Source: Ensifer sesbaniae
GTDB lineage: Bacteria; Pseudomonadota; Alphaproteobacteria; Rhizobiales; Rhizobiaceae
DNA length: 64,000 bases
Assembly (NCBI RefSeq): GCF_013283665.1
Contig: NZ_JABEKU010000002.1
Coordinates: forward strand, 1,052,863-1,116,862
Direction: 5' to 3'
A model generated the notes under the pieces. That model ran no database searches. It worked only from the letters and a program-made list of their open reading frames with translations, and was not told the DNA's origin. Each line of letters starts with the position of its first letter. Position 1 is the stretch's first letter. Below are positions 28,572 through 63,363 of this stretch, piece by piece. A program made the translations under genes and the position numbers.

Positions 28572-30301
28572 GCGCTCACGACTCCCAATCGAGGGGCTGT
28601 GGTTGCGGCTCGCGCTCGCTCTTCCATCGCACGGAACACATCGTTGCGCGGACCGAAGAGATCGATCTGACCGCGCTGAAGCACAAGAACCTTGTCGACG
28701 CTCTCCATCATGTTTGAGCGATGGGTGATCAGAACTATCGTCCTTCCGGCAGCCTTGAGCTTTTGAAGCGCATCGCTCAGCGCCTGCTCACCGTCTCCGT
28801 CAAGGTTGGAGTTGGGCTCGTCCAGGAGCAAGAACGCAGGATCCCGGTAGAGTGCGCGGGCAAGCGCGATCCGCTGACGCTGGCCGCCCGAGAGCACCGC
28901 GCCCGCCTCGCCAATCTCAGTGTGGTAGCCTTTCGGTAGCCCTTTGATGAGCTCGTGTACCCCGGCCTCGCACGCAGCGCGCACGACATTGCGGAAGGAT
29001 TGCTCGTTGAGTTCCTGAAATCGAGCGATGTTCTCGGCGACGGTCCCGGAGAAGAGTTCGATGTCCTGTGGCAAGTAGCCGACATGCTGGCCGCGATCCG
29101 CGGCTGCCCATTGCGCGACATCCATGCCACCAAGGAGCACCCGGCCGTGGCCGGCCGTGGAAGCGCCCACGATGAGCCTTGCCAGGCTCGTCTTGCCCGC
29201 CGCAGACGGACCAATGACCGCGAGCACTTCGCCGGGTTCGAGCTGGAAGCTCACGCCCTTCAGGATCGGCTCGCCGCCGCCTTCGCGCGCAACGATGACA
29301 TTCTCGACGACAAGCCGCCCCTCGGGACGCGGCAATGGCAGAATGGGGACCTCGTCGCGCCGAGCGCCGGCCACGACGGATAGCCGGTAATAGGCAGATC
29401 GCGCGCTCAAGATCGCCTTCCACGTACCGATCGCCTGCTCGACGGGTGCAAGCGCCCGCCCCATCAGGATGGAGGCAGCCACCATCGCGCCGGGAGAGCC
29501 CTCGGCATGCACGACAAGATAGGCTCCGAGCCCGAGAATGCCGATCTGCAGGCCGAGCCGGAGAAAGCGCGCCGCCGCGGCAAGGGCCGCCGAACGAAGG
29601 CTTGCGGTCGCCTGCCCCTCCGCCGCAGCCTTCTGCACCGGCTTCCAGCTGGACATCATCGCCTGCAGCATGCCCATGGCCTGTATGGCCTCGGCGTTTC
29701 GGATCGCCGCTTCCGCTTGTGCATAGGCTTTGCTTTGAGCGCCGCTCGCCTGGGCAACCGGCTGTCGCGTGACAAGCTCCGTGAGCACCGCCAGAAGGAA
29801 AAGCGCAAGACCGCCTCCCAATGCCAGCCAGCCGAGCCAGGGGTGCAGCAGGAAGATTGCCGCAAAGAAGATCGGCGCCCAGGGCGCGTCAAGGATCGGG
29901 AAAATTGCCGAGCCGGTGACGAAGTTCCCGAACTGCTCGAGGTCGCGCAGCGTGCGAGCGCCGCCATTGCCGCGCTTCCCCGCCGCCTGTTCGATCGACG
30001 CAGCAAGCAGCACAGGCGAAAGGCGACCGTTCAGCCAGATCCCGGTGGCGATAAGCAGTTGCGATCGCACGGTTTCCAATATTGCCAGGGCCAGGAGCGC
30101 CACGACGGCCATCACGGTGAGCGCCGTCAGCGTTTCGAGGCTGTGGCTCGAAAGCACCCGATTATAGACCTGCAGCATGTAGAGCGCCGCCGTCAGCATC
30201 AGGATGTTGATTGCCGCGCTGAAGGCTACGAGTGGCCAGGCGGCACGCCGAAGTTCGGCCATCACCGCCTGGAGGGAGGACTGGTTGGGTGCAAGGCGCA
30301 T
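28568..30301 (-). CDS. type I secretion ABC permease/ATPase (PrtD-like)
   Basis: Inner-membrane exporter of 577 residues that energises secretion of the upstream repeat protein. Permease domain ~18-300 with six TM-type segments (WPLVAFSAAINILMLTAALYML), including the PrtD-typical LDAPWAPIFFAAIFLLHPWLG. The ATPase domain has Walker A GPSAAGKTS, LSGGQRQRIALARALY signature, FLLLDEPNSNLD Walker B and ITHRSN switch His. There is no N-terminal C39-like domain, consistent with a protease/RTX-type exporter. It starts 18 bases after the large gene's stop and overlaps the HlyD-type gene by four bases, so the three are one operon. Confidence 0.92.
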   Translation of the reverse strand: MRLAPNQSSLQAVMAELRRAAWPLVAFSAAINILMLTAALYMLQVYNRVLSSHSLETLTALTVMAVVALLALAILETVRSQLLIATGIWLNGRLSPVLLAASIEQAAGKRGNGGARTLRDLEQFGNFVTGSAIFPILDAPWAPIFFAAIFLLHPWLGWLALGGGLALFLLAVLTELVTRQPVAQASGAQSKAYAQAEAAIRNAEAIQAMGMLQAMMSSWKPVQKAAAEGQATASLRSAALAAAARFLRLGLQIGILGLGAYLVVHAEGSPGAMVAASILMGRALAPVEQAIGTWKAILSARSAYYRLSVVAGARRDEVPILPLPRPEGRLVVENVIVAREGGGEPILKGVSFQLEPGEVLAVIGPSAAGKTSLARLIVGASTAGHGRVLLGGMDVAQWAAADRGQHVGYLPQDIELFSGTVAENIARFQELNEQSFRNVVRAACEAGVHELIKGLPKGYHTEIGEAGAVLSGGQRQRIALARALYRDPAFLLLDEPNSNLDGDGEQALSDALQKLKAAGRTIVLITHRSNMMESVDKVLVLQRGQIDLFGPRNDVFRAMEERARAATTAPRLGVVSA

Positions 30302-30319
30302 TTTTCGCTCGTCCTCACG

Positions 30320-49090: not shown

Positions 49091-52063
49091 TCACTCCTCC
49101 GCTGGCCCGTAGAGGCCGAGCTTTTCGAGCAGTGTCCGCTGCCGATCGACACTTTCAACGAGCAAGCCGGTGTAGCGATCGACGATCCGGTCGCGATGGT
49201 CCGGATCGGAAACGGCAGAGAGTGCGCCGAGGATCGCAGCGACCCTTTCGGACGTCCGCCGCAGGTCCCCAAGGAGGTCCGCCTTGCCGCCGAGTTCGGT
49301 GACCGCTCTCTTCGAGACCCGGCCGATGCCGGCGGGAGTGCAACTGCCTGCCGACACATAGCCAATCGGCAGGTCACCCTTGAGATTGGTGACCGACTTG
49401 AATTGAATGGCATCGAAGATCTGGTCGACTGCCTGCTTCGCACCGGTCACGCGCGTGGGATGATCGGTGTCCGCAGCAGCATGCGGCAGCAGTTCGAGCT
49501 TGCCCTTATGGCGCTCCTCGAGCGGCAGGTAAGGCAGCATCGGTCCGCTGAGCTTGCCGGTCGCGGCATCCTTGAAGAGGTCGGCGTCGATCGCGGCATG
49601 CGCGATCTTGCCGGATGACAGCGCCTCGTCGAGCGCGACCGCATCGACGACCTCGCCGCGGTCGTAATTGACCAGCACGGACCCGTCATTCATCGCGCCG
49701 AGCACCTTCGCATCAACCGTCCCGGCGTTGGAATAGACGCCGCTTGCCGCGTCGAGGCGACCGAGACCAATATGAACGGAGAGGACGTCGGCACCAGCCG
49801 CCGCCGCGACCGGACTTGCGGCATAGTCGAAGCCTTCCGCCTCGATCCAGCGCTTGTGATGCTCGCGGGCGTAGATCGCCACCTTCATGCCGAAGGCCTT
49901 GGCGAGCTTGGCGACTTCACGACCGATATTGCCATAGCCGAGAATGGCGATCTTCCGGCCTTCGAGCTTGGCGGTGGGAAAATCCTTGAGCTGACGGCCG
50001 GTGTCGAAGTCGCCCTCGGCGACCATCCGGTGCAGCCTGTGGACCGGCAAATCGGGAACGACCTTCACGACCGCCTTCATCGCCATCTGGGCGGTCGCCC
50101 GGCTGTTGATCCCCGGCGTGTTCATGAGCGGCGCCTCGCCGCCCTCGCCATTGCCGCCGCCCCAGGAGGCCGAGCCCATGTTGCCGGTGCCCGCGCCAAT
50201 GCGCACGCCGCCGAGCGGGAAGACGGAGGCCTTCGGAATGAAGGTCGCCGCGGCAATCAGCGCGTCGTACTGGCCCTTATCGGTCTGCGGCAGGATCTCA
50301 GCCTCGGTGCTGAGATTCGGCTGGTAGAAGAAATGGATGCGGCCCTTCTCGAGCGCCGACCGGTCGCCGATCGGCCCGAGATGGAAGACACCGCCCTTTT
50401 CCTCGATATAGGCCTTCACCTCGCTGTGATCCGGCTGGCCGTCGGCGCCGAAGCGCAGGCCGATCATATCGGCGATCAGCACGGTATAGGCACGCGTCGG
50501 ATCGTCCTTGCGGACGGGCCCATCGGCCTTGGCCGGAGCCTCGAAGGTGACGCCATTCTTCGCCAGTTCCTCTTCAAGAACGACGATCTTGGCAAGCAGA
50601 TAGGCGTATTGCAGGTTCTCCAGAAGCGCGACGACATCTTCCGGCTCGCGGATGCCGCCGACCCAGGCGCGGTAGTCGCCGGGCGTGCCCGGGAAGGCAT
50701 TGACGTAGCGGGCCGCGTCGAGGCCGGGCTCGTAATCGCCGTTCGGGTGGGTAATGCCCTCATAGCCGAGCAATTGTTTCGAACGGGCGATGATGCGGGC
50801 GTGGATGGCAGGATCGCTGATGCCACCGTCCTCCACCTTCAGCAGTGTCACGGCCGCGCCGCGCCGCTCGGCATCGGTGACCGTCAGCGACAAAAGCGGA
50901 TGCGCCTTGACCCACTCCTCGACCACCTTGCGATTGGCGGCGGATCGACGGTTGAGATCGACGACAGAGCCAACCCGAGCCTCCGACTGCAACAGGCCGA
51001 AGGTGGTCTCGGCAAAGGCGAGCGCGCTGTAGGTGTTGATGACGCCGCCGAGCATGCGATCTTCGGCCGGGTCGTAGAACGGCCCTGCGTCGACGGAGCG
51101 CTTGGCCGAAAAGGGCTGCCTGGGATCGACGGGCGGCGCAATCTTCAGTTGCCGGGGGATCGCCCAGGCGGGAGATTGCTGGTTCTTCTCGATCAGTGCC
51201 AGGGCGTGCGGCGTGAAGGAGGCGACAAAATAGCCCGAAATGCCGCCGATCGCCTTCTGGAAAGGCATGAACAGGCAGCACTTCACCATAACGGCAGCGA
51301 CCAGTTCGGGCTCCCACGGCATGGCACCCAGCATCGAGGTTGCGTCGAACACCGCATGGCGGTTTGTCGGATCGCCATCGATCCAGTTCAACAACTCGCG
51401 GATCTCGCCGCTGGTATAGGCATTGGCACCGGTCGTCTCGTGGCCAACACCGACGAAGATCGAAACGCCAAGGGAGGAGAGCTCTGCCGCAGTCGGAATG
51501 ACGCCTTCGGAGGCGGCGAAATGGATACGGCTCTCGCAACCCTTTTCGGCGAAGCGCTGCATTTCGATCAGCTGTGTTGCCCAGGACTGGCGGAAGAAGC
51601 CCGCGGCCTTGGACGGATCGCTCTCCGGCCGCGGCGTATCGACATAGATGCGTTGGGAGGTGTCGTTGGCATTCATCAGATGCTGGACGCAAACGGTGAA
51701 ACCACTGTGGCCACCGCCGAGCCCGACTGCCATGCGGTTCGTCTTCGGAAAGCCGAAATAGCGATGGATCGCCCGCATCATGTCGGTCAAAATCTTATCG
51801 GCCGGATAGCCTCGGTGCATGCTGCGGGAAATCTCGGCGGTTGTGAAGCCGCCAATGTCGTTGCCCCTGTCGTCGAACTTGCGATAGGTCTTCTCGATCC
51901 AGGCATCGAACGCGATCCGCCGCAGGCGGCTGTCCACTTCGTCGGTGGTTGCATCGGTGATCGGGCCGACACCGAAGAATGGGTTGGACGGCGGCCTCGG
52001 CGCGCCCGATTTGGTCAGTTCGATTGCCTTCAGTCGCTGTTCCTGCATCTGCGCGATATTCAT
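49091..52063 (-). CDS. phosphoserine aminotransferase-like / 3-phosphoglycerate dehydrogenase-like fusion
   Basis: Cytosolic protein of 990 residues joining two enzymes. Residues ~20-510 resemble alphaproteobacterial SerC (class V PLP enzyme): SNPFFGVGPITDAT start, VGLGGGHSGFTVCVQ phosphate loop, VFDATSMLGAMPWE and the PLP-lysine in FMPFQKAIGGISGY. Residues ~535-990 are a D-2-hydroxyacid dehydrogenase: ILGYGNIGREVAKLAKAFGM (NAD-binding), VLVNYDRGEVVDAVALDEAL (catalytic Arg), a Glu-containing EERHKGKLELLPHAAADT with catalytic His, and a C-terminal helical tail. SerA and SerC catalyse consecutive steps and are normally separate. Substrate could be 3-phosphoglycerate, a phosphoerythronate-like acid, or something new. 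ATG 52063; isolated from the operon upstream by a relic-bearing gap. Confidence 0.8.
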   Translation of the reverse strand: MNIAQMQEQRLKAIELTKSGAPRPPSNPFFGVGPITDATTDEVDSRLRRIAFDAWIEKTYRKFDDRGNDIGGFTTAEISRSMHRGYPADKILTDMMRAIHRYFGFPKTNRMAVGLGGGHSGFTVCVQHLMNANDTSQRIYVDTPRPESDPSKAAGFFRQSWATQLIEMQRFAEKGCESRIHFAASEGVIPTAAELSSLGVSIFVGVGHETTGANAYTSGEIRELLNWIDGDPTNRHAVFDATSMLGAMPWEPELVAAVMVKCCLFMPFQKAIGGISGYFVASFTPHALALIEKNQQSPAWAIPRQLKIAPPVDPRQPFSAKRSVDAGPFYDPAEDRMLGGVINTYSALAFAETTFGLLQSEARVGSVVDLNRRSAANRKVVEEWVKAHPLLSLTVTDAERRGAAVTLLKVEDGGISDPAIHARIIARSKQLLGYEGITHPNGDYEPGLDAARYVNAFPGTPGDYRAWVGGIREPEDVVALLENLQYAYLLAKIVVLEEELAKNGVTFEAPAKADGPVRKDDPTRAYTVLIADMIGLRFGADGQPDHSEVKAYIEEKGGVFHLGPIGDRSALEKGRIHFFYQPNLSTEAEILPQTDKGQYDALIAAATFIPKASVFPLGGVRIGAGTGNMGSASWGGGNGEGGEAPLMNTPGINSRATAQMAMKAVVKVVPDLPVHRLHRMVAEGDFDTGRQLKDFPTAKLEGRKIAILGYGNIGREVAKLAKAFGMKVAIYAREHHKRWIEAEGFDYAASPVAAAAGADVLSVHIGLGRLDAASGVYSNAGTVDAKVLGAMNDGSVLVNYDRGEVVDAVALDEALSSGKIAHAAIDADLFKDAATGKLSGPMLPYLPLEERHKGKLELLPHAAADTDHPTRVTGAKQAVDQIFDAIQFKSVTNLKGDLPIGYVSAGSCTPAGIGRVSKRAVTELGGKADLLGDLRRTSERVAAILGALSAVSDPDHRDRIVDRYTGLLVESVDRQRTLLEKLGLYGPAEE

Positions 52064-52451: not shown

Positions 52452-52784
52452 TCAAGTCGGCATTGCGAGCAGGATCGATGCCGGCGCGTTCGTCCGGTTG
52501 ACCAGCGCCCGCGCCTCACCCGGTGCCAGCCTGCAACTGTCGAGCAAGCCGAGCGTCACGCTCCCGGTTGGCGTTTCGATTGTCACCTCGCCCGCAACGA
52601 CGATGTAAATCTTCTCCACCTCGGCCGCCTTGAGAGACGTCCGGCCAGCGGGAAGGAGATGTGACAGACCGATCCAGATCGTGTCGGTTTCCGTCGCCTC
52701 CTTGCCTTGAAGCCGGAGGCAGCGCATGTCGTAATGCTCTGCTGCCTCGTAAGCCTTGGCCGCGGCGTAGCGCGTGACCTGCAT
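52452..52784 (-). CDS. small cupin-domain protein
   Basis: Single-domain cupin of 110 residues; conserved double-stranded beta-helix pattern with LLPAGRTSLKAAEVEKIYIVVAGEVTIETPTG and a second motif around LAPGEARALVN. The metal-binding His of classical cupins are largely replaced (only polar/acidic residues in motif 1), so it may bind or sense a pathway compound and not catalyse metal chemistry. Last gene of the eleven-gene operon, 10 bases after the oxidoreductase. Function in the pathway is open. Confidence 0.78.
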   Translation of the reverse strand: MQVTRYAAAKAYEAAEHYDMRCLRLQGKEATETDTIWIGLSHLLPAGRTSLKAAEVEKIYIVVAGEVTIETPTGSVTLGLLDSCRLAPGEARALVNRTNAPASILLAMPT

Positions 52785-52794
52785 CCGGCTCTCC

Positions 52795-53799
52795 TTACGG
52801 CTTCAGCAGCACGCGGTCGGCCGTGCCGCGCAGCACCGAGGCATAGGCCTTGGCCGCATCCGCAAGGCCATAGACAGTCTCCGGGTTGATTGGGAACGGC
52901 TTCAGTTTGCCTGCTTCGAACATCGGCTTGAGCTTGTCGAAGATGCGTGCGCCCTCGACGGAGGAGAGAGCCAGCGTATCGATGCCGATATATTTGTGGC
53001 GGCCGCGGAAGAAATTGAAGATATCGAAGGGCACGGCGCGATCGAAGGTGGAGATGAAGATCTGCCGCGCCTGCTTCGCCATGGCATTGTTGCCGATTTC
53101 GAAATAAGGGCTGCCGACCGTATTGAAGACGATGTCGGCGCCATGACCGCCGGTCTTTTCCTTGACGATCGCGGCAACGTCGTCTTTGGCGCTGTTCAGC
53201 ATGTCCACCGGAGCGTTCGTGTGGGCAAGCAGCGGCTGCTCGTTATATTCGACCGCGAAGACCCGTGCGCCGGCAAGCGTGGCAAGCTGGATCGCCGCCT
53301 GGCCAACCTTGCCGTTGCCGCCACAGACGAGCACGACGTCTGTCGGCTGCACGCCGCCGGCCTCACGCAAACCCTCATAGGCGGTGATGAAAGGAACGCC
53401 AATCGACCCCGCCTCTTCCATCGTGAAGTTCGAAGGTTTGGCGCGCACGGCCTTCTGATCGAGAACCATCCATTTGGCGTGGCTGCCATCCTGGGTGATG
53501 CCGAGCTCACCGCCGCCCCCCCAGATTTCCATACCGATCATCGAAGCCGGTCCCTCGCGCACGACGCCGCCGAAGTCGCGTCCCGGCGTGCGTGGCCAGA
53601 TGGCATGCGGCATGTGTCCGAGAGACGCCTTGACGTCGCTGGGGTTGACACCGGCCGCAACGATCTCGACCAGCACCTGGCCAGGGCCCGGCCGCGGAAT
53701 GGTCACATCGGCCAGATCAATCTTGAGATTGTCGAGATCGGGCGATTTCTCGTTGACCCTCAACGCTTTGGCGATTTTTGCGTCGACCTGGATATTCAT
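52795..53799 (-). CDS. zinc-less MDR-family (quinone oxidoreductase-like) reductase
   Basis: NADPH-dependent medium-chain reductase of 334 residues. N-terminal GroES-like part: PRPGPGQVLVEIVAAGVNPSDVKASLG and TPGRDFGGVV; Rossmann part: VLVCGGNGKVGQAAIQLATLAGARVFAVE; C-terminal DAAKAYASVLRGTADRVLL. The zinc ligands of alcohol dehydrogenases are absent, placing it with quinone/enoyl reductases. In an operon encoding ring cleavage, reduction of a 2-ene-keto acid (as maleylacetate reductase does) is an attractive but unproven role. It lies 29 bases after the BKACE gene and 10 before the cupin gene. Confidence 0.85.
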   Translation of the reverse strand: MNIQVDAKIAKALRVNEKSPDLDNLKIDLADVTIPRPGPGQVLVEIVAAGVNPSDVKASLGHMPHAIWPRTPGRDFGGVVREGPASMIGMEIWGGGGELGITQDGSHAKWMVLDQKAVRAKPSNFTMEEAGSIGVPFITAYEGLREAGGVQPTDVVLVCGGNGKVGQAAIQLATLAGARVFAVEYNEQPLLAHTNAPVDMLNSAKDDVAAIVKEKTGGHGADIVFNTVGSPYFEIGNNAMAKQARQIFISTFDRAVPFDIFNFFRGRHKYIGIDTLALSSVEGARIFDKLKPMFEAGKLKPFPINPETVYGLADAAKAYASVLRGTADRVLLKP

Positions 53800-53828
53800 G
53801 TCTCATCTCCCTGAACTGGTTGTCAAAA

Positions 53829-54707
53829 TCATGCCGGAAGGCCGAGCATTTCGCGCGCCTGTGAGGGCTCGGCGATCTTGCCGCCGAGCTTCTCGATCAG
53901 GTCACGAGCACGCTCGACGAGTTCGCCGTTGCCTTTGGCGAGCACGCCCTTGGCGATGTAGGAATTATCTTCGAGGCCCACCCGCACATGGCCGCCGAGC
54001 AGATAGGACTGCACCGCCATCGGGAAAGACATTCGGCCGACGCCGAACCCGGTCCAGACGGCATCGCCAGGCAGCATGCGAGCGGCGGTCGCCATGACAT
54101 CGGTCGTCGACGGAAAGCCGTATTTGACGCCGGTGACGATCGTAAACATCGCGGGCGACTTCAGGGCGCCCGCTTTCAAGAGGTCGTGCGCGAGCTGGAT
54201 GTGGCCCGTGTCGAACACTTCGAGCTCGGGCTTGGATCCCGCGTCGTTGATGATATCCGCCATAACCTTCACGTTCTCTGGCGTGTTGATCACCACCTCC
54301 GAGCCGAAGGTCATCGTGTTCAGGTCGAGCGTCGCAATGTCGGGCTTGAGCGCCGCGATGTGCTCGACGCGCCGTTCCGGCCGCATCAACGTGGTGCGCG
54401 GCCCGGCGACGGCTGGATTGTCCTCGCTCGGATGGTACCGGCCGCCCGGACCGGTGGTGATATTGAGGATCAGGGCGTTGTTCCTGGCCCGAATCCGCTC
54501 GACCACCTCCCGATAATATTTGAGCTCCATCGACGGCTTGCCGGTCTCCGGATCGCGGACGTGGATGTGGGCGATGGCGGCGCCCGCTTCTGCCGCTTCC
54601 AGGCAGGAATTGGCGATCTCCTCGGGCGTGACGGGTAGACCGGGGTGGTTTTCCCGCGTGGTGAGATTGCCTGTAACCGCACAGGTGATGATGACATTTT
54701 GCTGCAT
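53829..54707 (-). CDS. beta-keto acid cleavage enzyme (BKACE/Kce family)
   Basis: TIM-barrel Zn enzyme of 292 residues. The family converts a beta-keto acid plus acetyl-CoA to acetoacetate plus a new acyl-CoA; the founding member acts on 3-keto-5-aminohexanoate. Zn ligands are in AAIAHIHVRDP (His47, His49); other family blocks are ITCAVTGN, NITTGPGG, LDLNTMTFGSEVVIN, EVFDTGHI and GHVRVGLEDN. ATG at 54707 shares one base with the upstream SDR stop (TGATG); a GTG at 54710 is possible. In this operon it may process the beta-keto acid formed after ring cleavage. Substrate is predicted, not seen. Confidence 0.9.
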   Translation of the reverse strand: MQQNVIITCAVTGNLTTRENHPGLPVTPEEIANSCLEAAEAGAAIAHIHVRDPETGKPSMELKYYREVVERIRARNNALILNITTGPGGRYHPSEDNPAVAGPRTTLMRPERRVEHIAALKPDIATLDLNTMTFGSEVVINTPENVKVMADIINDAGSKPELEVFDTGHIQLAHDLLKAGALKSPAMFTIVTGVKYGFPSTTDVMATAARMLPGDAVWTGFGVGRMSFPMAVQSYLLGGHVRVGLEDNSYIAKGVLAKGNGELVERARDLIEKLGGKIAEPSQAREMLGLPA

Positions 54708-55471
54708 CACAGATGCCTCCCACCATCGACGACGATCCGGTCGCCGGTCGAGAATTTGAGATGTGTCGCGCAGGCGACGATCGCCTCGGCCACATCGAGC
54801 GGCGAGGTGATGCGCTTCAGCGGCGTCGTCGCAGCAACTTTGTCGTTGAACTCCTTGCCGCGGCCGGGGACGAACTGAGTGTCAACCGCGCCCGGCGACA
54901 CCGAGAGTACACGGATGGCTGGTGCCAGTGCGCGAGCGAGCGATTTCGTCATGATGTCGAGCCCCGCCTTGGCGCCGCAATAGGCGACATTGGAGCCGAC
55001 GCCCGTGAAGGCGGCGATCGAGGAGACATTGACGATGAGCCCGTCGCCACGCTCCGTCAGTGCGGGCGCGAAGGCGCGGATGGTCGCGAAGACACCGCGC
55101 CAGTTGTTGACGAAGATCTCATCGATGAGGTCGTCCGTTAGCGCATCAAGGTCGCCGTGCGGGATGGGCTTGGTGATTCCGGCGCTGTTGACGAGAATGT
55201 CGGCGCCGCCCATTTCGCCGAGGACGCGGTCCCGGAAGGCCCCGATGCTGCTGCTGTCTTCGATCGAGACAGCCTCCGCCATGTGGCCATCCCCCGCCAG
55301 GCTCTCCTTCAGCGTCCGGGCTTGTTCGGTGGACGACCGGTATCCGATCGCCACTCGGGCGCCCGCTTCGGCGAGAAGCCGGCAGGCCTCGCGCCCGATG
55401 CCGCCGGAGCCGCCGGTGACGACGGCCACCTTGCCGGCGAGCGGCAGTCGATGTTCATACGTTGCCATCAT
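54707..55471 (-). CDS. short-chain dehydrogenase/reductase
   Basis: NAD(P)-dependent classical SDR of 254 residues: TGGSGGIG cofactor motif (~19-26), NSAGI (~94), SSIAAF with the catalytic Ser (~150), and YCGAKAG with Tyr and Lys of the YxxxK motif (~163-167). C-terminal SVSPGAVDTQF and VVDGGRHL are typical. It starts ATG 55471, overlapping the dioxygenase stop (ATGA), and its own stop overlaps the BKACE start, so three genes are translationally linked. Probably reduces or oxidises a keto/hydroxy intermediate of the same pathway. Confidence 0.88.
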   Translation of the reverse strand: MMATYEHRLPLAGKVAVVTGGSGGIGREACRLLAEAGARVAIGYRSSTEQARTLKESLAGDGHMAEAVSIEDSSSIGAFRDRVLGEMGGADILVNSAGITKPIPHGDLDALTDDLIDEIFVNNWRGVFATIRAFAPALTERGDGLIVNVSSIAAFTGVGSNVAYCGAKAGLDIMTKSLARALAPAIRVLSVSPGAVDTQFVPGRGKEFNDKVAATTPLKRITSPLDVAEAIVACATHLKFSTGDRIVVDGGRHL

Positions 55472-56394
55472 GACTTGGTCCCCGAGATCGGCGGCACGGG
55501 AAAGGTCGACTCGCCCTCCGTCAGGCGGAACTGATATTCGCAGGTGTAGAAGGGCGACGGCGTATCCGGGTGATCGGGATGCGGCTCGCGATGCTCGACG
55601 AAATCGCCGACGATCTGCTGCTTGGCGCCGAACACAACATCATCTGCAAGCGCCTCCGACGTATCGGAAAAGATCTGCGTGATCAGGGTCTTGTATCCGG
55701 GCGCCGAGACGATGAAGTGGATGTGGGCCGGACGCATCGGACGCCGCCGCTGGGCATGCAGCAATTCCCCCACCGGTCCGTCAGTCGGGACCGGGTAGCC
55801 GGCGGGTTTTACCGAGACGAAGTGGAACGAGCCTTCCGCGTCCGTATGAAAGACGCCGCGCAGGTTGAAGTCCTCCTGGTCCGGATCCTGGTTCTCGTAA
55901 AGGCCAACAGGAGAGGCCTGCCAGACATCGAGCTTGGCGCCGGCAATCGGCGTGCCGTCGACCCCGGTCACCTTGCCCTGGAAGAAGAGCTTCGGCCCAG
56001 GTGTTTCCGAGCGAGCAATGCAATCGCCACAGGCGCAGGCGGGAGCCTTGCCGCGGTAGAACGGGCCGAGCAGCGCGGACATAGTTTCGCCCTGCATGCC
56101 GTCATTGTTGATGAGGTCGATCAAGGTCGACGCGCCGAGAACGTCGGCGGCGAGCACGACCTCATTGTTGGTCTCATTGGTGTGATGGCCGAGGGCGGCG
56201 ATCCATTGCAGCGCCTTTTCGAATTCCGCCTCGGTCGGAAGCGTCTCGATGATGAAGGCATGGAGGTGACGCGTCGCGGACTCCATCAGCGTGCGCAGGC
56301 GCGCGTCCGGTGTGGCCGCCATCGCCGTGACGACCGTCGGCGTCACATCCTCGAGGGTCGATATCAGTTTCGGTTCGACTTTTACGTGTTGCAT
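55468..56394 (-). CDS. intradiol ring-cleavage dioxygenase (hydroxyquinol/catechol 1,2-dioxygenase type)
   Basis: Non-haem Fe(III) dioxygenase of 308 residues. N-terminal helical dimerisation domain ~20-120 (RHLHAFIIETLPTEAEFEKALQ), then the catalytic beta-sandwich with YENQDPDQEDFNLRGVF (Tyr ligand), GYPVPTDGPVGELL (Tyr ligand) and RPAHIHFIVSAPG (two His ligands). The order and the length match hydroxyquinol or chlorocatechol 1,2-dioxygenases. An unusual Cys cluster, ACACGDCIA, lies at the interdomain link. ATG 56394 is preceded by AGGAGA. The product would be maleylacetate if the substrate is hydroxyquinol or a muconate if catechol; no muconate cycloisomerase is in the window. Confidence 0.85.
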   Translation of the reverse strand: MQHVKVEPKLISTLEDVTPTVVTAMAATPDARLRTLMESATRHLHAFIIETLPTEAEFEKALQWIAALGHHTNETNNEVVLAADVLGASTLIDLINNDGMQGETMSALLGPFYRGKAPACACGDCIARSETPGPKLFFQGKVTGVDGTPIAGAKLDVWQASPVGLYENQDPDQEDFNLRGVFHTDAEGSFHFVSVKPAGYPVPTDGPVGELLHAQRRRPMRPAHIHFIVSAPGYKTLITQIFSDTSEALADDVVFGAKQQIVGDFVEHREPHPDHPDTPSPFYTCEYQFRLTEGESTFPVPPISGTKS

Positions 56395-56423
56395 GACATG
56401 TCTCCTGGCTGTCGCAGCCGGCC

Positions 56424-57197
56424 TCAGGCGGCCGTCGTCTTCAGGGATTGCAGGTGCGGGTATTTCTCGGTCAGCAGCGACCCGTGGTAGTAGGTCGCGG
56501 CGAAGGCGTTGGTTTCGCGGATGAGGTCCAGCCAGCGGCCGACTGCCGGTGACGATGCCCACAAGTGACCAAGATTGATGTCGTCCATGCGCACGATGAC
56601 CGGCATGATGGCGATGTCGGCGAGCGACAGAATGCGGCCGAGGACAAAGGGGCCGCCGCTCTCGTCGAGCCAGCGCGCGAAGCGGTCGACACCGCGCTGC
56701 AGGCGGCCGAGCGCTTCGTCCATCTCGGCCCTGGGGAAGCCGGTGCGGCCCATCTTCAGGAGGAACTCGCGGCGCAGAGGCTTGCTTTCGCAGACGGCCA
56801 GAAACTCCTCCGCGGTCATCGCCTGATAGTGTGGCAGGAAGGCGAGATTGTAGGAAGGTACGCGCACGGCCGGTGTCGGCACCTCGTCGATGTAGCGCAT
56901 CTTGGCCCGCATTTCGGCGACCTTGAGCGGGTCGGACGGGCGAAGCGGCGCCACCTCGGGATGGATGTCCTCGAGATATTCCATGATGACGGAGGAATCG
57001 AGCACCGAGGTCCCGTTATGAACGAGCGCCGGCACCAACCCGTTGGGGTTGACCGCCAGGTACTCGGGCTTCAACTGGTCGCCCCGGAAGAGGTCGAGCT
57101 TGTGCTCGACGAAAGGAAGCCCCTTCGTGTGCAGCGTGTAGCGAACGCGCTGGCTGCAGGTCGATTGCGGTGCGTTATAAAGTTCGTACTCGGACAT
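56424..57197 (-). CDS. glutathione S-transferase family protein of the catabolic operon
   Basis: GST of 257 residues, larger than the classical ~210 because of an extended helical C-domain. N-domain: MSEYELYNAPQSTCSQRVRY with Ser/Cys at the glutathione site, NPNGLVPALVHNG (cis-Pro) and DSSVIMEYLEDIHP. C-domain: FVLGRILSLADIAIMPVIVRM. The PQSTCSQRVR start and size resemble ring-modifying GSTs, such as LigE/LigF-like beta-etherases or maleyl-isomerase relatives, but the assignment is not firm. It lies between the transporter genes and the dioxygenase gene, implying glutathione-dependent cleavage or isomerisation of the imported substrate. Confidence 0.82.
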   Translation of the reverse strand: MSEYELYNAPQSTCSQRVRYTLHTKGLPFVEHKLDLFRGDQLKPEYLAVNPNGLVPALVHNGTSVLDSSVIMEYLEDIHPEVAPLRPSDPLKVAEMRAKMRYIDEVPTPAVRVPSYNLAFLPHYQAMTAEEFLAVCESKPLRREFLLKMGRTGFPRAEMDEALGRLQRGVDRFARWLDESGGPFVLGRILSLADIAIMPVIVRMDDINLGHLWASSPAVGRWLDLIRETNAFAATYYHGSLLTEKYPHLQSLKTTAA

Positions 57198-57261
57198 GCC
57201 TTCCTCCTCCTGCGGTTCTGCAGGTCAGTCATGTTGCGGTTCGATGTGTCGGGGCTGGAGC

Positions 57262-58308
57262 TCAGTCCCAGTTGAGCACACGCGGCAGCTTGCCGCGTCG
57301 CGCGAGCGTTCCCACCAGGCCGAGCGGAAAGAAGATCAGCCCGAGCGCCATCACCAGGCCGGTGCCAAGGATGTTGAGTTCCGAAGCGCCCATCATGGCA
57401 ACGAAGAGCTCGTTGAGCGCAACGATCAGCACGGCGCCGATGACAGGGCCGGCAACGGTTCCCTTGCCGCCGAGGATCGCCATCAGCACGAGGTTCACCG
57501 CGATCGGCATGATCAGGAAGATATTGGGGCGGAGATAGGTGATGTACTCGCCCCAGACGGCGCCAGCCATGCCGACGAAGAAGGCCGAGAGCGCGAAGGC
57601 CATGACCTTGTAGAAGCGCGTGTCGATGCCGGCGCTTTCCGCCTTGATCTCGTCCTTGGAAATCGCCCTGAGGCCAAGGCCGAACTTGGAGTGCTTGATG
57701 CGATAGCTCGCCCAGACGCTGAAGGCGGCGATCGCCAGCATGGCGTAGTAGTAGGGGATCTTCGCCCAGAGCACCGGTAGACTGGTGACCGGCAGCGTGA
57801 CGCCATTGGCACCGCCGACGAATTCCCAGTTATCAAACAGGATGCGGGCGATCATCAGGAGCGCGATTGACGAGATGATGAAGCTCGGACCGCGAACCTT
57901 GAGCGTGACCATGCCTATCAGATAGCCGATTACGGCGGCGACGAGGCCGGCAAGCGGCGCGGTGACGATCGTCGAGACGCCGAAACGGGCCAGGATCATG
58001 CCGGAGAAATATCCGCCGATCGCGAAGAACACGGCGTGGCCGAGCGAGATATAACCGGCGAAGCCGCCGAGGATGTTCCAGCCCGAGGCCATCGCCACAT
58101 AGCTCGCGGTGAAGAGCACCATGTGCAGCACGTAGTTGTAGTTGCCGGTAAGCTGCAGCAGCGGCAAGGCGACAAGAACCGCCATCAAGGCGAGCGGGAA
58201 CCAGGCTGCCCGCGTCTGGTCGGCCTTGCGGGCGAGCTTCTCGTTGTGCAGGCGGCGCGCTTCGAGGACGCCGCTGGTAGTGGATTGCTGAAGCGTGACG
58301 GTCATCAT
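57262..58308 (-). CDS. branched-chain-type ABC transporter permease (LivM-like)
   Basis: Inner-membrane permease of the HAAT family, 348 residues, eight to ten TM segments. Family blocks: ASGWNILGGFAGYISLGHAVFFAIGGY, LIGMVTLKVRGPSFIISSIAL, RAISKDEIKAESAGIDTRFYKVMAFALSAFFVGMAGA and GGKGTVAGPVIGAVLI. ATG at 58308 overlaps the LivH-like stop (ATGA). It pairs with the permease at 58305-59186. HAAT systems import branched-chain amino acids, urea, amides and several aromatic acids; with this operon an aromatic or ring-derived substrate is likely. Confidence 0.88.
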   Translation of the reverse strand: MMTVTLQQSTTSGVLEARRLHNEKLARKADQTRAAWFPLALMAVLVALPLLQLTGNYNYVLHMVLFTASYVAMASGWNILGGFAGYISLGHAVFFAIGGYFSGMILARFGVSTIVTAPLAGLVAAVIGYLIGMVTLKVRGPSFIISSIALLMIARILFDNWEFVGGANGVTLPVTSLPVLWAKIPYYYAMLAIAAFSVWASYRIKHSKFGLGLRAISKDEIKAESAGIDTRFYKVMAFALSAFFVGMAGAVWGEYITYLRPNIFLIMPIAVNLVLMAILGGKGTVAGPVIGAVLIVALNELFVAMMGASELNILGTGLVMALGLIFFPLGLVGTLARRGKLPRVLNWD

Positions 58309-59186
58309 GCCATCTCCGGTTTTTCGCCGAACAGCCCCTGGGGCCGGACGAGCAGGATGAGGAAAAGAGCGACGAAGAAGGTCAACGTCGACCACGTCGC
58401 GCCAATCCAGGCGCCGACGAAGGCGGCAATGACCGACAGGAACAACGCGGCCACGACCGTGCCGAGAATGCTGCCCATGCCGCCGAGCACGACGACGGAC
58501 ATCAGCATCGCAATCCACTCGCCGTGTTTCGCCGGGAAGAAGCTGAAGACGAAGCTGACCAGCGAACCGGCCGCGCCCGCAAGCCCGATGCCGATCGCAA
58601 AGGCGAGCACGCTGATGAAGTTGACATTGACACCGAGAAGCTCTGCCGCCTCCCGGTTTTGCGTCGTTGCGCGGATAGCATAGCCAAGACGGGAGTATTT
58701 GAGGAACAGCGTCAGTCCGACGATGATCGTCAGGGAGACGATACCGGCGTAAAGCTGGCCCTTCGGGATGAAAAGGTCACCGATGAAGAAGGCATCGGTC
58801 GCATAGTCAGGCGAGACGATGCGCTGCGTGTTGGTGAAGAGCCCGCCGAGCGCGCCTTCGACGACCATGGCGAGCGCAAAAGTCAGGAGCACGGTCATCT
58901 CGGAATATTTGGCGCTTTTCGTCTGCCTCTCGAGCATCAGGCGGTAGAGCAACACGCCGATAGCCGCCATGATGACGGAGGCGACGGGCAGCATGACAAT
59001 CGGATCGACGCCAAGAAGCTTGAACGCCCAATAGGTGATGTAGGCACCGGCGATGATGAGCGACGGGTGCGCGAGGTTGACGATGCGCATCACCCCGAAC
59101 ACCAGCGACAGACCGGAGCCCATCAGCGCGATGACGCCACCGAGAGCTAGGCCCAAGATCAGAATTTGAAGTATTTCAGCCATCAT
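58305..59186 (-). CDS. branched-chain-type ABC transporter permease (LivH-like)
   Basis: Permease of 293 residues. Typical LivH blocks: LILGLALGGVIALMGSGLSLVFGVMRIVNLAHPSLIIAGAY at the start, RATTQNREAAELLGVNVNFISVLAFAIGIGLAGAAG, and LSVVVLGGMGSILGTVVAALFL-like C-terminal segments ending in RPQGLFG. It has a double ATG at 59186/59183 with GAAGGAG just upstream. Seven bases separate it from the LivF-like gene and it overlaps the LivM-like gene by four bases. Confidence 0.88.
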   Translation of the reverse strand: MMAEILQILILGLALGGVIALMGSGLSLVFGVMRIVNLAHPSLIIAGAYITYWAFKLLGVDPIVMLPVASVIMAAIGVLLYRLMLERQTKSAKYSEMTVLLTFALAMVVEGALGGLFTNTQRIVSPDYATDAFFIGDLFIPKGQLYAGIVSLTIIVGLTLFLKYSRLGYAIRATTQNREAAELLGVNVNFISVLAFAIGIGLAGAAGSLVSFVFSFFPAKHGEWIAMLMSVVVLGGMGSILGTVVAALFLSVIAAFVGAWIGATWSTLTFFVALFLILLVRPQGLFGEKPEMA

Positions 59187-59193
59187 AGCTCCT

Positions 59194-59922
59194 TCAGGCG
59201 GCTTTCTTGCCGCCGAGATAGAGTTCCTGGATGCGCGGGTCGGACAGGATCATCTCGGCTGGGCCCTCGAAAAGCGTGCGGCCGAGGTCGAGCACCACGC
59301 CCCAATCGGAATTCTTGAGCCCCATCAAGGCGTTCTGCTCGACGAGTAGCACCGTGACGCCCTCCGCCGACATCATCTTCATGATGTCGAACATCTCCTG
59401 AATGACCTTCGGAGCGAGTCCGAGCGATGGCTCGTCGAGCATGACGATGGCGGGCTTGATGATCAGCGTGCGGGCCATCGCCAGCGTCTGCTGCTGGCCG
59501 CCGGACATGGTACCGGCGTGCTGGTCGGCGCGCTCGCGCAGGATCGGGAACCGCTCCAGAATGCCGTCGATCCGCCGCTCCAGTTCCTTCTGGTCGTTGA
59601 GGATGAAGCCGCCCATACGCAGGTTTTCGCGCACGGTCATTTTCGGGAACAGCGCCCGCTCCTGCGGCACGAAGCAGATGCCCTCGCGCAGGATCTGGTC
59701 CGGGCGCATGCCGTTCAGGCGCTTGCCCTTGAAGATCACGTCGCCCTTGCGGATCGTCAGCATGCCGCAGATTGCTTTCATCAGGGTCGATTTGCCGGCG
59801 CCGTTCGGGCCGATGATGCAATGGACCTTGCCGGGTTCGACGGTGAGATGGGCGCCGTCGAGGATCGCCGGACCATCGCCGTAGCCGGCGGTGATGTTGG
59901 TGACCTGAAGAAGCTCGCTCAT
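59194..59922 (-). CDS. branched-chain-type ABC transporter ATPase (LivF-like)
   Basis: ATP-binding subunit of 242 residues. Walker A GPNGAGKSTLMKAICG, signature MSGGQQQTLAMARTL, Walker B AIVMLDEPSLGLAP, and VLLVEQNALMGLKN, the LivF-specific switch region. ATG at 59922 shares its first base with the TGA of the LivG-like gene (TGATG). With the LivG-like subunit it forms the ATPase heterodimer of the importer. Confidence 0.92.
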   Translation of the reverse strand: MSELLQVTNITAGYGDGPAILDGAHLTVEPGKVHCIIGPNGAGKSTLMKAICGMLTIRKGDVIFKGKRLNGMRPDQILREGICFVPQERALFPKMTVRENLRMGGFILNDQKELERRIDGILERFPILRERADQHAGTMSGGQQQTLAMARTLIIKPAIVMLDEPSLGLAPKVIQEMFDIMKMMSAEGVTVLLVEQNALMGLKNSDWGVVLDLGRTLFEGPAEMILSDPRIQELYLGGKKAA

Positions 59923-60668
59923 CACGCCGCCTCCGCTTCCAGGATGCCACCAAGATAGGCTTCGAGCACCTGCGGATCCTGGCGAACGACATCCGGCGTC
60001 CCCGAACAGATGACGCGCCCCTGCGCCATCACCACGACCTTGTGCGAAAGACGCATGATCAGGTCCATGTTGTGCTCGACGATAAGCACTGTCAGGCCCT
60101 TCTCGTTCAAGGCGCGGATGTGACCGATGATCTCTTCGAGAAGTGACGGGTTGACGCCGCCTGCCGGTTCGTCGAGCAGGATGATCTTGGGATCGGACAT
60201 CAGCAGAGCCGCAAGATCCATCAGCTTCTTCTGCCCGTAGGAGAGATTGTGGCCGTCCTCGTAGGCGATGCGGGTGATGCCCAGGAACTCCAGGATCGAC
60301 ATCGCCTTGTCCTTTTCCTCCGCGCTCATGGCGGGACGGAACAGGCCGGACCAGCCATCGACCCGCGATTGCACGATGACGTTCTCGATAACCGTCATTT
60401 CGGCGAGATTGCGCGAGATCTGGAAGGTTCGGCTCAAGCCGCGCGCCGTCACCTTATGTGGTCTCAGATGATCGATGCGATCGCCGTCGAGCCGGATCTC
60501 GCCCGATGTCGGCGTGACGGTGCGACTGATGCAGTTGAACGCCGTGGTTTTGCCGGCGCCATTCGGGCCGATCAATGCGGTGATCGATCCCTTCTCGACG
60601 GTGAAGCTCGCACCGTCGACGGCTCTGATGCCGCCATAGTGCTTGCAGAGATTCCTGACTTCGAGCAT
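59922..60668 (-). CDS. branched-chain-type ABC transporter ATPase (LivG-like)
   Basis: ATP-binding subunit of 248 residues. Walker A GPNGAGKTTAFNCISR, RTFQISRNLAEMTVIEN (the LivG Q-loop segment), LSYGQKKLMDLAALLM signature, IILLDEPAGGVNP Walker B, and IVEHNMDLIM switch. ATG 60668 follows GGGAGG; the frame is open to 60719. It is 77 bases downstream of the binding-protein gene, with a hairpin spanning the gap's edge. Confidence 0.92.
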   Translation of the reverse strand: MLEVRNLCKHYGGIRAVDGASFTVEKGSITALIGPNGAGKTTAFNCISRTVTPTSGEIRLDGDRIDHLRPHKVTARGLSRTFQISRNLAEMTVIENVIVQSRVDGWSGLFRPAMSAEEKDKAMSILEFLGITRIAYEDGHNLSYGQKKLMDLAALLMSDPKIILLDEPAGGVNPSLLEEIIGHIRALNEKGLTVLIVEHNMDLIMRLSHKVVVMAQGRVICSGTPDVVRQDPQVLEAYLGGILEAEAA

Positions 60669-60733
60669 GCGCTCGACCTCCCGTTCCTTCAGTCCACAGG
60701 AATGTCGCGAGCCGGACATTTACCGCCTCGCGT

Positions 60734-60755
60734 CGGCTTCACCGGTCAGAAGCCG
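60734..60755. other. hairpin at the 3' end of the binding-protein gene
   Basis: CGGCTTC (60734-60740) pairs with GAAGCCG (60749-60755) around an eight-base loop, covering the stop codon (60746-60748). Such stems between a binding-protein gene and its permease/ATPase genes often stabilise the upstream mRNA, giving excess binding protein. No U-tract is present. Confidence 0.5.
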
Positions 60756-62023
60756 GCCTTGGGGTAGCTGAAGGGCACGACGCCTTCGAACTCGCCCTTC
60801 GGATAGACGAACTTGAGGTTGCCACCCTGCCACTGGGTCATGATGTGGGATTTGTTCTGGGCGAGGCCGCGCTCATCCCAATTGAAGCGGCCGAGCACCG
60901 TTTGCACGGGTGCATCCTTCGTGCGCGCGTGCAGCCATTCCGCCATCTTGGCATTGTCGGTGGAACCGGCGCCAGTGATTGCCTGCTCGATACCCTGGCA
61001 GACAGCGAACGGGATGGCGCTGTCCTCGTCCGGCTCGACGCCGTAGGCAGCGGTGAAAGCCTTGACGAAATCGCCATTGCTGAACGGCTTGCCGGCGAGC
61101 GTGCTCTCGAAGGGCACGTCCTTGTGCCAGGTGGTGTGGATCATGACGCCGTCGGCCGCGTCCTTGCCGACGCCTTCGATGAATTCGTTTTGCGCGCCCT
61201 GGCTCAGGTAAACGAGTTTCGGCGTGGCCCCAACGGTCTTCAGCGCGCGGGTCAACTGCACGGCTTCTTCCGCCGAGGCAGTGAGGCCGACGACCATTTC
61301 GGCGCCGGAGCGCTTGATCGAGTTGGCGAGGTTCAGCCAGTCGTTGAAGCCTTCCTCCGGCCACTTCTCCTGCATCACGACCTTGATGCCGGCATTGGCG
61401 AGGTAGCCCGGAGCGAGATCGGCGATCTCTTTGTCGGTCGCCGGATCCTTGACCTTTTCGCCGAGCAGGCCGGCGGCAATCGCATTGGCAAAGAAGTCGT
61501 CCGCAGACACGATCGCAGCGCTCTTGGGCCCCTCGCCTGCCGGGATCAGGTCGTGGATGACAGCGGTCACGTCCTTTCCGGTATATTCGGCCGCACTCAC
61601 CTGGAAATAGAAGAGGTTGCGGTAGCCCTGCTCGTAGATGCGCAATGCGCCGCCGGAGGGAACCGCGTGCACCATGTTGTACTTCGACAGGATCGCGGCG
61701 ACGGGGAACGTCAGGCGGCTCGAGAACGTCCCGTAGACGGCGTCGACCTTGTCGACATTGATGAAGCGTTCGTATTGGTTGATGGCGGTCGCCGGATCGG
61801 AACGATTGTCGCTGACGATCAGGTCGACCTGCCGGCCAAGAATGCCGCCCGCTTCATTGATCAGCTTGGTGCAGAGCTCGTAGCCCCGCTTGTGCTTTTC
61901 GCCGCTGACGGACAGGCCGCCTGTGATCGGCAGCGACGCGCCGATACGGATGCTCTCCGCGTGCGCGGCGGTTGCTGCAAACACCATTGCGGTCGTTGCT
62001 GCCAGAATTCTTGCCAGAGTCAT
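60746..62023 (-). CDS. periplasmic substrate-binding protein of HAAT ABC importer
   Basis: Exported ligand-binding protein of 425 residues, Peripla_BP_6 (LivK-like). Signal peptide 1-22 (TTAMVFAATAAHA, cut before ESIRIGA). Mature start IRIGASLPITGGLSVSGEKHKRGYELC, then AGGILGRQVDLIVSDNRSDPATAINQYERFI and VDAVYGTFSSRLTFPVA, as in amino-acid/amide and aromatic-acid binding proteins. The ligand pocket cannot be read reliably. ATG 62023 is preceded by GGGAGGAGC. First gene of the eleven-gene operon, 54 bases from the nearest GCAATCGATTGC palindrome, so the operon is probably repressed by the divergent LacI-type regulator. Confidence 0.9.
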   Translation of the reverse strand: MTLARILAATTAMVFAATAAHAESIRIGASLPITGGLSVSGEKHKRGYELCTKLINEAGGILGRQVDLIVSDNRSDPATAINQYERFINVDKVDAVYGTFSSRLTFPVAAILSKYNMVHAVPSGGALRIYEQGYRNLFYFQVSAAEYTGKDVTAVIHDLIPAGEGPKSAAIVSADDFFANAIAAGLLGEKVKDPATDKEIADLAPGYLANAGIKVVMQEKWPEEGFNDWLNLANSIKRSGAEMVVGLTASAEEAVQLTRALKTVGATPKLVYLSQGAQNEFIEGVGKDAADGVMIHTTWHKDVPFESTLAGKPFSNGDFVKAFTAAYGVEPDEDSAIPFAVCQGIEQAITGAGSTDNAKMAEWLHARTKDAPVQTVLGRFNWDERGLAQNKSHIMTQWQGGNLKFVYPKGEFEGVVPFSYPKAGF

Positions 62024-62076: not shown

Positions 62077-62092
62077 ATGCAATCGATTGCAT
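62077..62092. promoter_or_regulatory. operator 1 of the LacI-type regulator
   Basis: ATGCAATCGATTGCAT, a perfect 16-bp palindrome with central CG as LacI-family operators have, 54 bases upstream of the binding-protein start. The core GCAATCGATTGC (62079-62090) recurs twice more in the same intergenic region. Confidence 0.8.
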
Positions 62093-62199
62093 ACACGGAC
62101 GCAAAACAAACTAATAAACGCCTGGCGCGTGCCCTGCGATCTCCTCCATCGTCATTAGGGCACAGCTTGGCACAGCCGCCTCGTATCGGCCACGCCTTT

Positions 62200-62211
62200 G
62201 CAATCGATTGC
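62200..62211. promoter_or_regulatory. operator 2 of the LacI-type regulator
   Basis: Second perfect copy of GCAATCGATTGC, centred 121 bp from operator 1. Its last bases overlap the -35 element of the predicted lacI-type promoter, suggesting autoregulation and possibly loop formation with operator 1. Confidence 0.8.
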
Positions 62212-62236
62212 GTAATGTATCTAACACGGCTAATAT
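62208..62236 (+). promoter_or_regulatory. sigma-70-type promoter of the LacI-family gene
   Basis: TTGCGT (62208-62213), exact 17-base spacer, TAATAT (62231-62236). It is flanked by operator 2 (overlapping the -35) and operator 3 (about 20 bases after the -10), and lies 78 bases before the ATG. Confidence 0.65.
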
Positions 62237-62255
62237 GTCGCGTCAAGATGATTGT

Positions 62256-62267
62256 GCAATCGATTGC
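62256..62267. promoter_or_regulatory. operator 3 of the LacI-type regulator
   Basis: Third perfect copy of GCAATCGATTGC, centred 56 bp from operator 2, just downstream of the predicted transcription start of the regulator gene, where binding would block its transcription. Confidence 0.8.
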
Positions 62268-62313
62268 CTCGACGCTCGAACGCGGTAGAATGGGATACGG
62301 ACGGAGTAACCAA

Positions 62314-63363
62314 ATGAAGAAAAAGAGAATTACGCTCAAAGACATAGCCCGCGAAACCGGCGTTCACGTCTCAACCGTCTCGCGGGCGCTCGACCCCATC
62401 GAACGCAAGTCGATTACCGACGACGTCGCCAATCGCATTCAGGCCGCGGCCGAACGGCTCGGCTATCGTCCGAACCGCATCGCCGCCGGATTGCGCACCA
62501 ACCGCACGATGACCGTGGGCGTCATGATTCCCGACATCACCAACCTGGTCTTCCCGCCGATCCTGCGCGGCATCGAAAGTGTGCTCGAACCGCTCGGCTA
62601 TGCCGCGATCATCGTCAACACCGACAGCGAGCGCGACCGCGAGGTTCGCCTGCTTGATGTGCTTCGCGACCGAGGCGTCGACGGCATCATCCACGCTGCC
62701 GTGCTGCGAAGCGATCCTTCGATCGCGCGGGCTGCCCAAGACGGCCTGCCCGTCGTCACGCTCAACAGAAAGGTGGAGCAATCCACGATCCCCAGCGTGG
62801 TCAATGACGAAGATGCCGGTATATGCGAGATGCTGCGGCATTTGAAAGAGCTCGGCCACACCCGCATCGCCCATATCGCCGGGCCGCAGGAACTTTCCAC
62901 CGGTCAGCTCCGCCTCTCCGCCTTCCGCAAAGCAGCCGATGACCAGGCGATAGAGGTCGACGAGGCGCTTATCCGGGTGGCGACCCGGTTCAACGAGGAG
63001 GATGGAGCCCGCTGCCTTCTTGAACTGCTCGATGGCGGTAATGTCTTCACTGCCGTCCTCTGTGCCAACGACCGGCTGGCGCTCGGCGCCATCGAAGCCC
63101 TGCGCGACCGCGGCATCGACTGCCCCGGGCAGATCTCCGTGAGCGGCTTCAACGACATGCCGCTGCTCGACCTTATCCGACCGAAACTCACGACCGTTCG
63201 CATTCAGCAGTACGAGGCAGGTCGTACGGCAGCGAAACTGCTGATGCGGCTGGTTAATTCCGCCGAAGACGACGCGATACCACTCGAAACCGTTCTGCCC
63301 GTGGAACTCGTCGCCAGGGAGAGCACGGCCCCCGTGGCCGCCGGCGGCCCGAGTTCTCGATAA
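62314..63363 (+). CDS. LacI-family transcriptional regulator of the catabolic operon
   Basis: Repressor-type regulator of 349 residues. LacI HTH and hinge: RITLKDIARETGVHVSTVSRAL, then IQAAAERLGYRPNRIAAGLRT; periplasmic-binding-like effector domain from ~62 (TVGVMIPDITNLVFPPILRGIE, DGIIHAAVLR, LCANDRLALGAIEALRDRG, SVSGFNDMPLLDLIRPKLTTVR). ATG 62314 follows GGAG at good spacing; the open frame extends upstream to 61972 without similarity. It diverges from the ABC-transporter/dioxygenase operon, with three palindromic operators between, and probably responds to the pathway substrate or an intermediate. Confidence 0.92.
   Translation: MKKKRITLKDIARETGVHVSTVSRALDPIERKSITDDVANRIQAAAERLGYRPNRIAAGLRTNRTMTVGVMIPDITNLVFPPILRGIESVLEPLGYAAIIVNTDSERDREVRLLDVLRDRGVDGIIHAAVLRSDPSIARAAQDGLPVVTLNRKVEQSTIPSVVNDEDAGICEMLRHLKELGHTRIAHIAGPQELSTGQLRLSAFRKAADDQAIEVDEALIRVATRFNEEDGARCLLELLDGGNVFTAVLCANDRLALGAIEALRDRGIDCPGQISVSGFNDMPLLDLIRPKLTTVRIQQYEAGRTAAKLLMRLVNSAEDDAIPLETVLPVELVARESTAPVAAGGPSSR

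Follow-up and report, generated by a model that had tools for sequence, protein, structure and literature searches.

The hydroxyquinol branch of the beta-ketoadipate pathway is composed of a dioxygenase, a maleylacetate reductase of the iron-containing alcohol dehydrogenase type (Fe-ADH), the CoA-transferase PcaIJ and the thiolase PcaF. Beta-keto acid cleavage enzymes (BKACEs), whose known substrates include beta-ketoadipate (PMC4922564), have been proposed as substitutes for PcaIJF in the pca cluster of Methylobacterium and the cat cluster of Ralstonia eutropha H16 (PMC8963497, PMC12379598, PMC6449761). Here, an operon is described that encodes a BKACE together with an intradiol dioxygenase, a short-chain and a medium-chain dehydrogenase/reductase (SDR and MDR), a small cupin, a glutathione S-transferase (GST) and an importer of the HAAT type. 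It lies in a stretch of 64,000 nucleotides (the window) of the genome of Ensifer sesbaniae, a soil bacterium that is kin to nitrogen-fixing root symbionts. The operon is real, conserved and chemically coherent. It is somewhat probable that it is repressed by a LacI-type regulator and that it combines the importer with a module that converts a trihydroxybenzene via maleylacetate and 3-oxoadipate to succinyl-CoA and acetoacetate.

The conservation was analyzed in the genome contigs that carry the 80 best-matching relatives of the dioxygenase, by tblastn with all window proteins. Genes in these loci were called with a codon-usage gene finder, which reproduced the annotated genes. The genes for the dioxygenase, SDR, BKACE, MDR and cupin were clustered in virtually all of the untruncated loci L004-L038, from Sinorhizobium, Ensifer, Rhizobium, Shinella, Aminobacter, Paracoccus, Stappia, Roseibium, Poseidonocella, Dongia and others, and in about 14 more divergent loci (Herbaspirillum, Paraburkholderia, Herminiimonas, Phenylobacterium, Telmatospirillum). 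The module occurs in more than 50 loci of Alpha- and Betaproteobacteria, and the comparison of gene neighbourhoods, proposed as a check in an earlier note on this DNA, showed that the dioxygenase-SDR-BKACE block is kept across many families. Exceptions were some Ensifer loci, in which an SDR sits across LacI, three Paraburkholderia or Burkholderia loci, which have distant MDRs only, on the opposite strand, and a metagenome-assembled genome from a lake (L056), which has the block without the BKACE. Among 249 genomes sampled evenly across the order, a BKACE was located at most 2 kb from 10 of 17 dioxygenase matches, and 10 of the 13 BKACEs with at least 57% identity adjoined the dioxygenase. The HAAT importer and the GST are confined to one variant of the module, the GST being found only in HAAT-type loci, and other variants have TRAP, tripartite tricarboxylate, SDF symporter, MFS or NMT1-type transporters. 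This conservation and the exchangeable transporters indicated that the block is a portable lower pathway and not a chance grouping. The peripheral genes vary strongly between loci, and therefore the ligand of the importer cannot be read from them. Some module clusters contain genes for malic enzyme or phosphoenolpyruvate carboxykinase, which is compatible with a C4 product.

The dioxygenase contains the domains Dioxygenase_N and Dioxygenase_C, and all iron ligands (Y164, Y197, H221, H223) are kept. The closest solved enzymes are of the hydroxyquinol type, including PnpC, 1TMX and 8R2W. At the sites that we take to be the substrate-pocket positions of the 1TMX structure it has Leu80, Asp83, Gly109-Pro110-Phe111, Pro200, Arg218 and Val251, as have the solved hydroxyquinol enzymes, in line with the hydroxyquinol-type activity predicted in the earlier note. 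Pro83 and Ala251 stand at these positions in the genome's catechol-type dioxygenase (L115). The residue at position 83 reportedly helps to recognise the extra hydroxyl. Asp83 was present in 57 of 57 BKACE-linked dioxygenase rows, which are not 57 independent events because the residue is inherited (two changes on the tree), and in all five aligned hydroxyquinol-type enzymes of the PDB. None of 34 sister rows with Gly83/Gln251 was accompanied by a BKACE; they form one clade nested inside the module clade (support 100/100). The solved hydroxyquinol enzymes fall outside the module clade, and the window dioxygenase is in a separate clade (support 92/92). Many of the Gly83/Gln251 sister enzymes (L050-L083) sit in quinate/shikimate-type clusters together with an HpaH-like hydratase, a CHMI-like isomerase, AroE, AroQ and a TIM-barrel protein, which possibly represent an intradiol pyrogallol route. 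One such cluster is located on contig C2 at about 1.896 Mb (L116:7863-16140), and all seven intradiol dioxygenase domains of the genome are on this contig.

The BKACE matched Pfam PF05853 with a score of 326 bits (cut-off 24.8). In the numbering of BsfD, its closest solved relative, the zinc ligands His48, His50 and Glu247 as well as Asp248 and Arg243 are present. Throughout the module BKACEs, Phe166 is conserved, and so is Arg91, which is part of a beta3-loop insertion that also occurs in BsfD. In BsfD, Arg91 lies near the second anionic group of the substrate (PMC12871164), and the Arg91 loop of the module enzymes would suit a dianionic beta-keto acid, e.g., 3-oxoadipate. The preprint on flavophos called Arg91 unique and tied Phe166 to the unusual chemistry of BsfD (PMC12871164). 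The loci analyzed here reveal that both residues are traits of a catabolic BKACE subfamily and not of BsfD (PDB 9ZSC) alone.

The following reactions are proposed from the gene content, the conservation, the operators and the active-site residues, all of which were observed in the sequences. The dedicated HAAT importer would supply the compound to the portable module under LacI repression. The dioxygenase would open a hydroxyquinol-type trihydroxybenzene to maleylacetate (3-hydroxymuconate), and the MDR, or less likely the SDR, would reduce its double bond to yield 3-oxoadipate, replacing the Fe-ADH maleylacetate reductase, which is absent from the block and sits in a neighbouring LysR-controlled operon. 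In place of PcaIJ and PcaF, the BKACE would convert 3-oxoadipate and acetyl-CoA to succinyl-CoA and acetoacetate, and the latter would be turned into acetyl-CoA by general CoA transfer and thiolysis. The suggestion of the earlier note that a BKACE could replace PcaIJF is plausible, but the CoA-transferase and thiolase chemistry would not be bypassed altogether: activation and splitting of acetoacetate would still be required, and therefore the net balance equals that of the classical pathway. Tentatively, the SDR might catalyze the step that precedes ring cleavage or act on a hydroxy acid close to it in the pathway, and the GST and the cupin might be isomerases or catalyze peripheral steps.

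The role of the MDR is suggested by the distribution of reductases. Nine of 19 distinct module-bearing genomes lack an Fe-ADH more than 36% identical to the neighbouring maleylacetate reductase, and there maleylacetate, should it be the product, would have to be reduced by another enzyme. The MDR is the best candidate, since reduction of activated double bonds is common in its family, and probably the MDR or the SDR of the module replaces the maleylacetate reductase. A more far-reaching proposal, which we put forward tentatively as a serious possibility, is that hydroxyquinol-type rings are widely degraded through this lower pathway, the MDR or SDR taking the place of maleylacetate reductase and a distinct BKACE subfamily (Arg91/Phe166) that of PcaIJF, and that the pathway is the sole complete route in some genomes. 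In Poseidonocella pacifica, neither a PcaF above the cut-off nor a CatI-type CoA-transferase was found; this genome carries pcaGH-like genes. An IolM-like function of the MDR found no support. The best overall solved match of the GST was LigF, and its conserved N-terminal STCSQRVR motif is zeta-like, so that it could act after ring opening, as an isomerase of maleylacetate, or before it. The cupin matched no Pfam model and a small cupin-type NCBIfam model only below the cut-off, and a sequence search of the PDB yielded no match. Its AlphaFold model (pLDDT 89.8) has a cupin fold with TM1459 as the best PDB match, and the fold search retrieved generic small cupins only; a KdgF-like sugar enzyme found no support.

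Several observations weigh against the proposed pathway. To our knowledge, the MDR family is not known for maleylacetate reductases. The genome encodes its own pcaIJF: the absence of pca genes claimed in the earlier note holds for the operon, but a pcaF and a CoA-transferase pair are located at C2:1.988-1.991 Mb, and pcaF was found in nearly all sampled genomes, including this one. With 190.9 bits the BKACE does not reach the cut-off of 350 bits of NF053568 (3-oxoadipate:acetyl-CoA acetyltransferase). Phe166 occupies the position of a Tyr (Tyr145 of CcaKce) that is reported for characterised BKACEs; Phe is also found there in 3C6C, and the necessity of the Tyr was not settled in the flavophos study (PMC12871164). 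The SDR is as conserved as the other module genes, although three enzymes suffice for the scheme, and hence the ring or the product may carry an extra group. Lastly, a LysR-controlled operon starts about 180 bases to 1.2 kb past the LacI gene, outside the window (L109:2545-12907, contig C2). It encodes two hydroxyquinol-type intradiol dioxygenases, the Fe-ADH maleylacetate reductase, a second HAAT importer and an FAD hydroxylase, and thus the LacI operon may serve to degrade another ring.

The last two points would be accounted for if the substrate were a substituted hydroxyquinol with an additional hydroxyl, a methoxy group or a side chain, which would be converted to a substituted 3-oxoadipate-like diacid. 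The SDR would then act on the extra oxygen and the MDR on the double bond, and the BKACE would yield acetoacetate and another acyl-CoA, e.g., malyl-CoA. The great variation of the peripheral genes would also fit. However, the pocket residues equal those of enzymes acting on hydroxyquinol itself, and no residue evidence supports an extra group; this explanation is rather unlikely, though the strongest of the alternatives. It is improbable that the BKACE and the SDR act on a hydroxy acid unrelated to the ring product, with the dioxygenase serving another branch of the imported compound. SDR-BKACE pairs do exist without the module dioxygenase, and in the deoxyribonate pathway an SDR makes the beta-keto acid that a BKACE cleaves (PMC6365646), but the dioxygenase and the BKACE remain adjacent across many families, and the BKACE linkage accompanies Asp83 in the dioxygenase. 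We regard it as very improbable that the BKACE acetylates and decarboxylates instead of cleaving, as described for the 58% identical BsfD (PMC12871164): it shares Phe166 and Arg91, but dozens of catabolic loci encode BKACEs with these residues, and a diketone would hardly be a sensible product there; moreover, Gln16 and Asp131 of BsfD differ from the module enzymes, which have Asn at position 131. Cleavage of pyrogallol or another catechol to a 2-oxo acid, as suggested for the quinate-cluster sister group by its AroQ, AroE, CHMI-like and HpaH-like partners, is the least probable of all, because the sister enzymes have Gly83/Gln251 instead of Asp83/Val251 and would not supply the BKACE with a beta-keto acid.

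The operon layout matched the earlier description of eleven minus-strand genes with gaps or overlaps of at most 77 bases; all eleven reading frames are open (Table 1). From the gene of the solute-binding protein (SBP) to that of the cupin, the intergenic distances are 77, -1, 7, -4, 64, 29, -4, -1, 29 and 10 bases. Gene families were assigned with Pfam and NCBIfam models. The predicted control by LacI agrees with the divergent LacI gene and three putative operator palindromes between this gene and that of the SBP. With up to two mismatches, TGCAATCGATTGCA has only three copies in the whole window, a number that was reached in no shuffle. The operator core GCAATCGATTGC was found upstream of most dioxygenase-SDR-BKACE-MDR-cupin loci, and the LacI gene stays beside the block in most HAAT-type loci. 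The other operator-like sites of the genome did not extend the LacI regulon: they are located in a region that resembles a phage and next to a different LacI gene, which accompanies an ABC transporter of the sugar type. The ring might have been formed by an FAD monooxygenase encoded near the block of Rhizobium bangladeshense, but the operator at that locus precedes LacI itself and so does not place the enzyme in the regulon.

Table 1. Genes and putative operators of the LacI operon (window positions).
Feature	Position	Strand	Remarks
LacI-family regulator, divergent	62314..63363	+	Pfam LacI, Peripla_BP_3; ATG start 62314
LacI-type operator palindrome (putative)	62255..62268	.	1 mismatch to TGCAATCGATTGCA
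LacI-type operator palindrome (putative)	62199..62212	.	1 mismatch to TGCAATCGATTGCA
LacI-type operator palindrome (putative)	62078..62091	.	TGCAATCGATTGCA, exact match
HAAT solute-binding protein (SBP)	60746..62023	-	Peripla_BP_6
ABC transporter ATPase, LivG type	59922..60668	-	ABC_tran, BCA_ABC_TP_C
ABC transporter ATPase, LivF type	59194..59922	-	ABC_tran
ABC transporter permease	58305..59186	-	BPD_transp_2
ABC transporter permease	57262..58308	-	BPD_transp_2
Glutathione S-transferase (GST)	56424..57197	-	Pfam/NCBIfam; LigF best overall solved match; STCSQRVR
Intradiol ring-cleavage dioxygenase, hydroxyquinol-type active site	55468..56394	-	Asp83, Arg218, Val251 (1TMX numbering)
SDR oxidoreductase	54707..55471	-	Immediately precedes BKACE in nearly all loci
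BKACE (DUF849)	53829..54707	-	His48, His50, Glu247, Asp248, Arg243, Arg91, Phe166
MDR-family (quinone oxidoreductase-like) reductase, candidate maleylacetate reductase	52795..53799	-	
Small cupin	52452..52784	-	Usual HxH metal motif absent

Parts of the LysR operon are also located beside the block in the Sinorhizobium/Rhizobium loci L004, L005, L007, L008 and L036. In favour of the proposed pathway, a related BKACE is encoded at an independent locus on an Agrobacterium plasmid (L117) along with a dioxygenase of the hydroxyquinol type and an enzyme annotated as maleylacetate reductase. It also holds SDRs, a sugar-isomerase-like TIM barrel and a Gfo/Idh/MocA protein, and perhaps a cyclitol is turned into a trihydroxybenzene there. 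Elsewhere in the window, the minus strand encodes a 990-residue SerC-SerA-like fusion (49091-52063) with a phosphoserine-transaminase-like N-terminal half and a D-2-hydroxyacid dehydrogenase C-terminal half, and at 27219-34909, judged from sequence only, a 1529-residue protein followed by two genes that resemble type I secretion components.

If the proposed pathway is correct, dozens of rhizobial, marine and Paraburkholderia genomes contain an unrecognised end of aromatic breakdown, the enzymes of which are currently annotated as "catechol dioxygenase" or "3-keto-5-aminohexanoate cleavage". It would place BKACE in a new pathway context and add a maleylacetate reductase outside the Fe-ADH family. 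In addition, the occurrence of Arg91 and Phe166 in catabolic enzymes bears on the origin of the phosphonate enzyme BsfD from a BKACE subfamily. The earlier note had not recognised the combination as described. The bypass idea is not new, because BKACE had already been proposed in place of PcaIJ and PcaF for the protocatechuate and catechol pathways, while literature searches yielded nothing on hydroxyquinol and BKACE together, and the five-enzyme core, present in dozens of bacteria, appears to be undescribed as a pathway.

The LacI operon shares with the hydroxyquinol branch the active site of the dioxygenase and the expected intermediates maleylacetate and 3-oxoadipate. In contrast to this branch, it has MDR, SDR, BKACE and cupin instead of an Fe-ADH reductase and PcaIJF, and its dioxygenase belongs to a clade apart from the solved hydroxyquinol enzymes. 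As in the Methylobacterium and Ralstonia clusters, the BKACE is proposed to form succinyl-CoA and acetoacetate from 3-oxoadipate and acetyl-CoA. However, those clusters start from protocatechuate or catechol, whereas the ring enzyme of the LacI operon is of the hydroxyquinol type, and its BKACE, which has Arg91 and Phe166, does not reach the cut-off set for the curated 3-oxoadipate family. With BsfD of flavophos biosynthesis it has the loop insertion, both of these residues and the zinc ligands in common, but BsfD is biosynthetic, has Gln16 and Asp131, and acts on a phosphonate. The deoxyribonate operon resembles the LacI operon in that an SDR adjoins the BKACE, and differs from it by its sugar acid substrate and by having no dioxygenase (PMC6365646).

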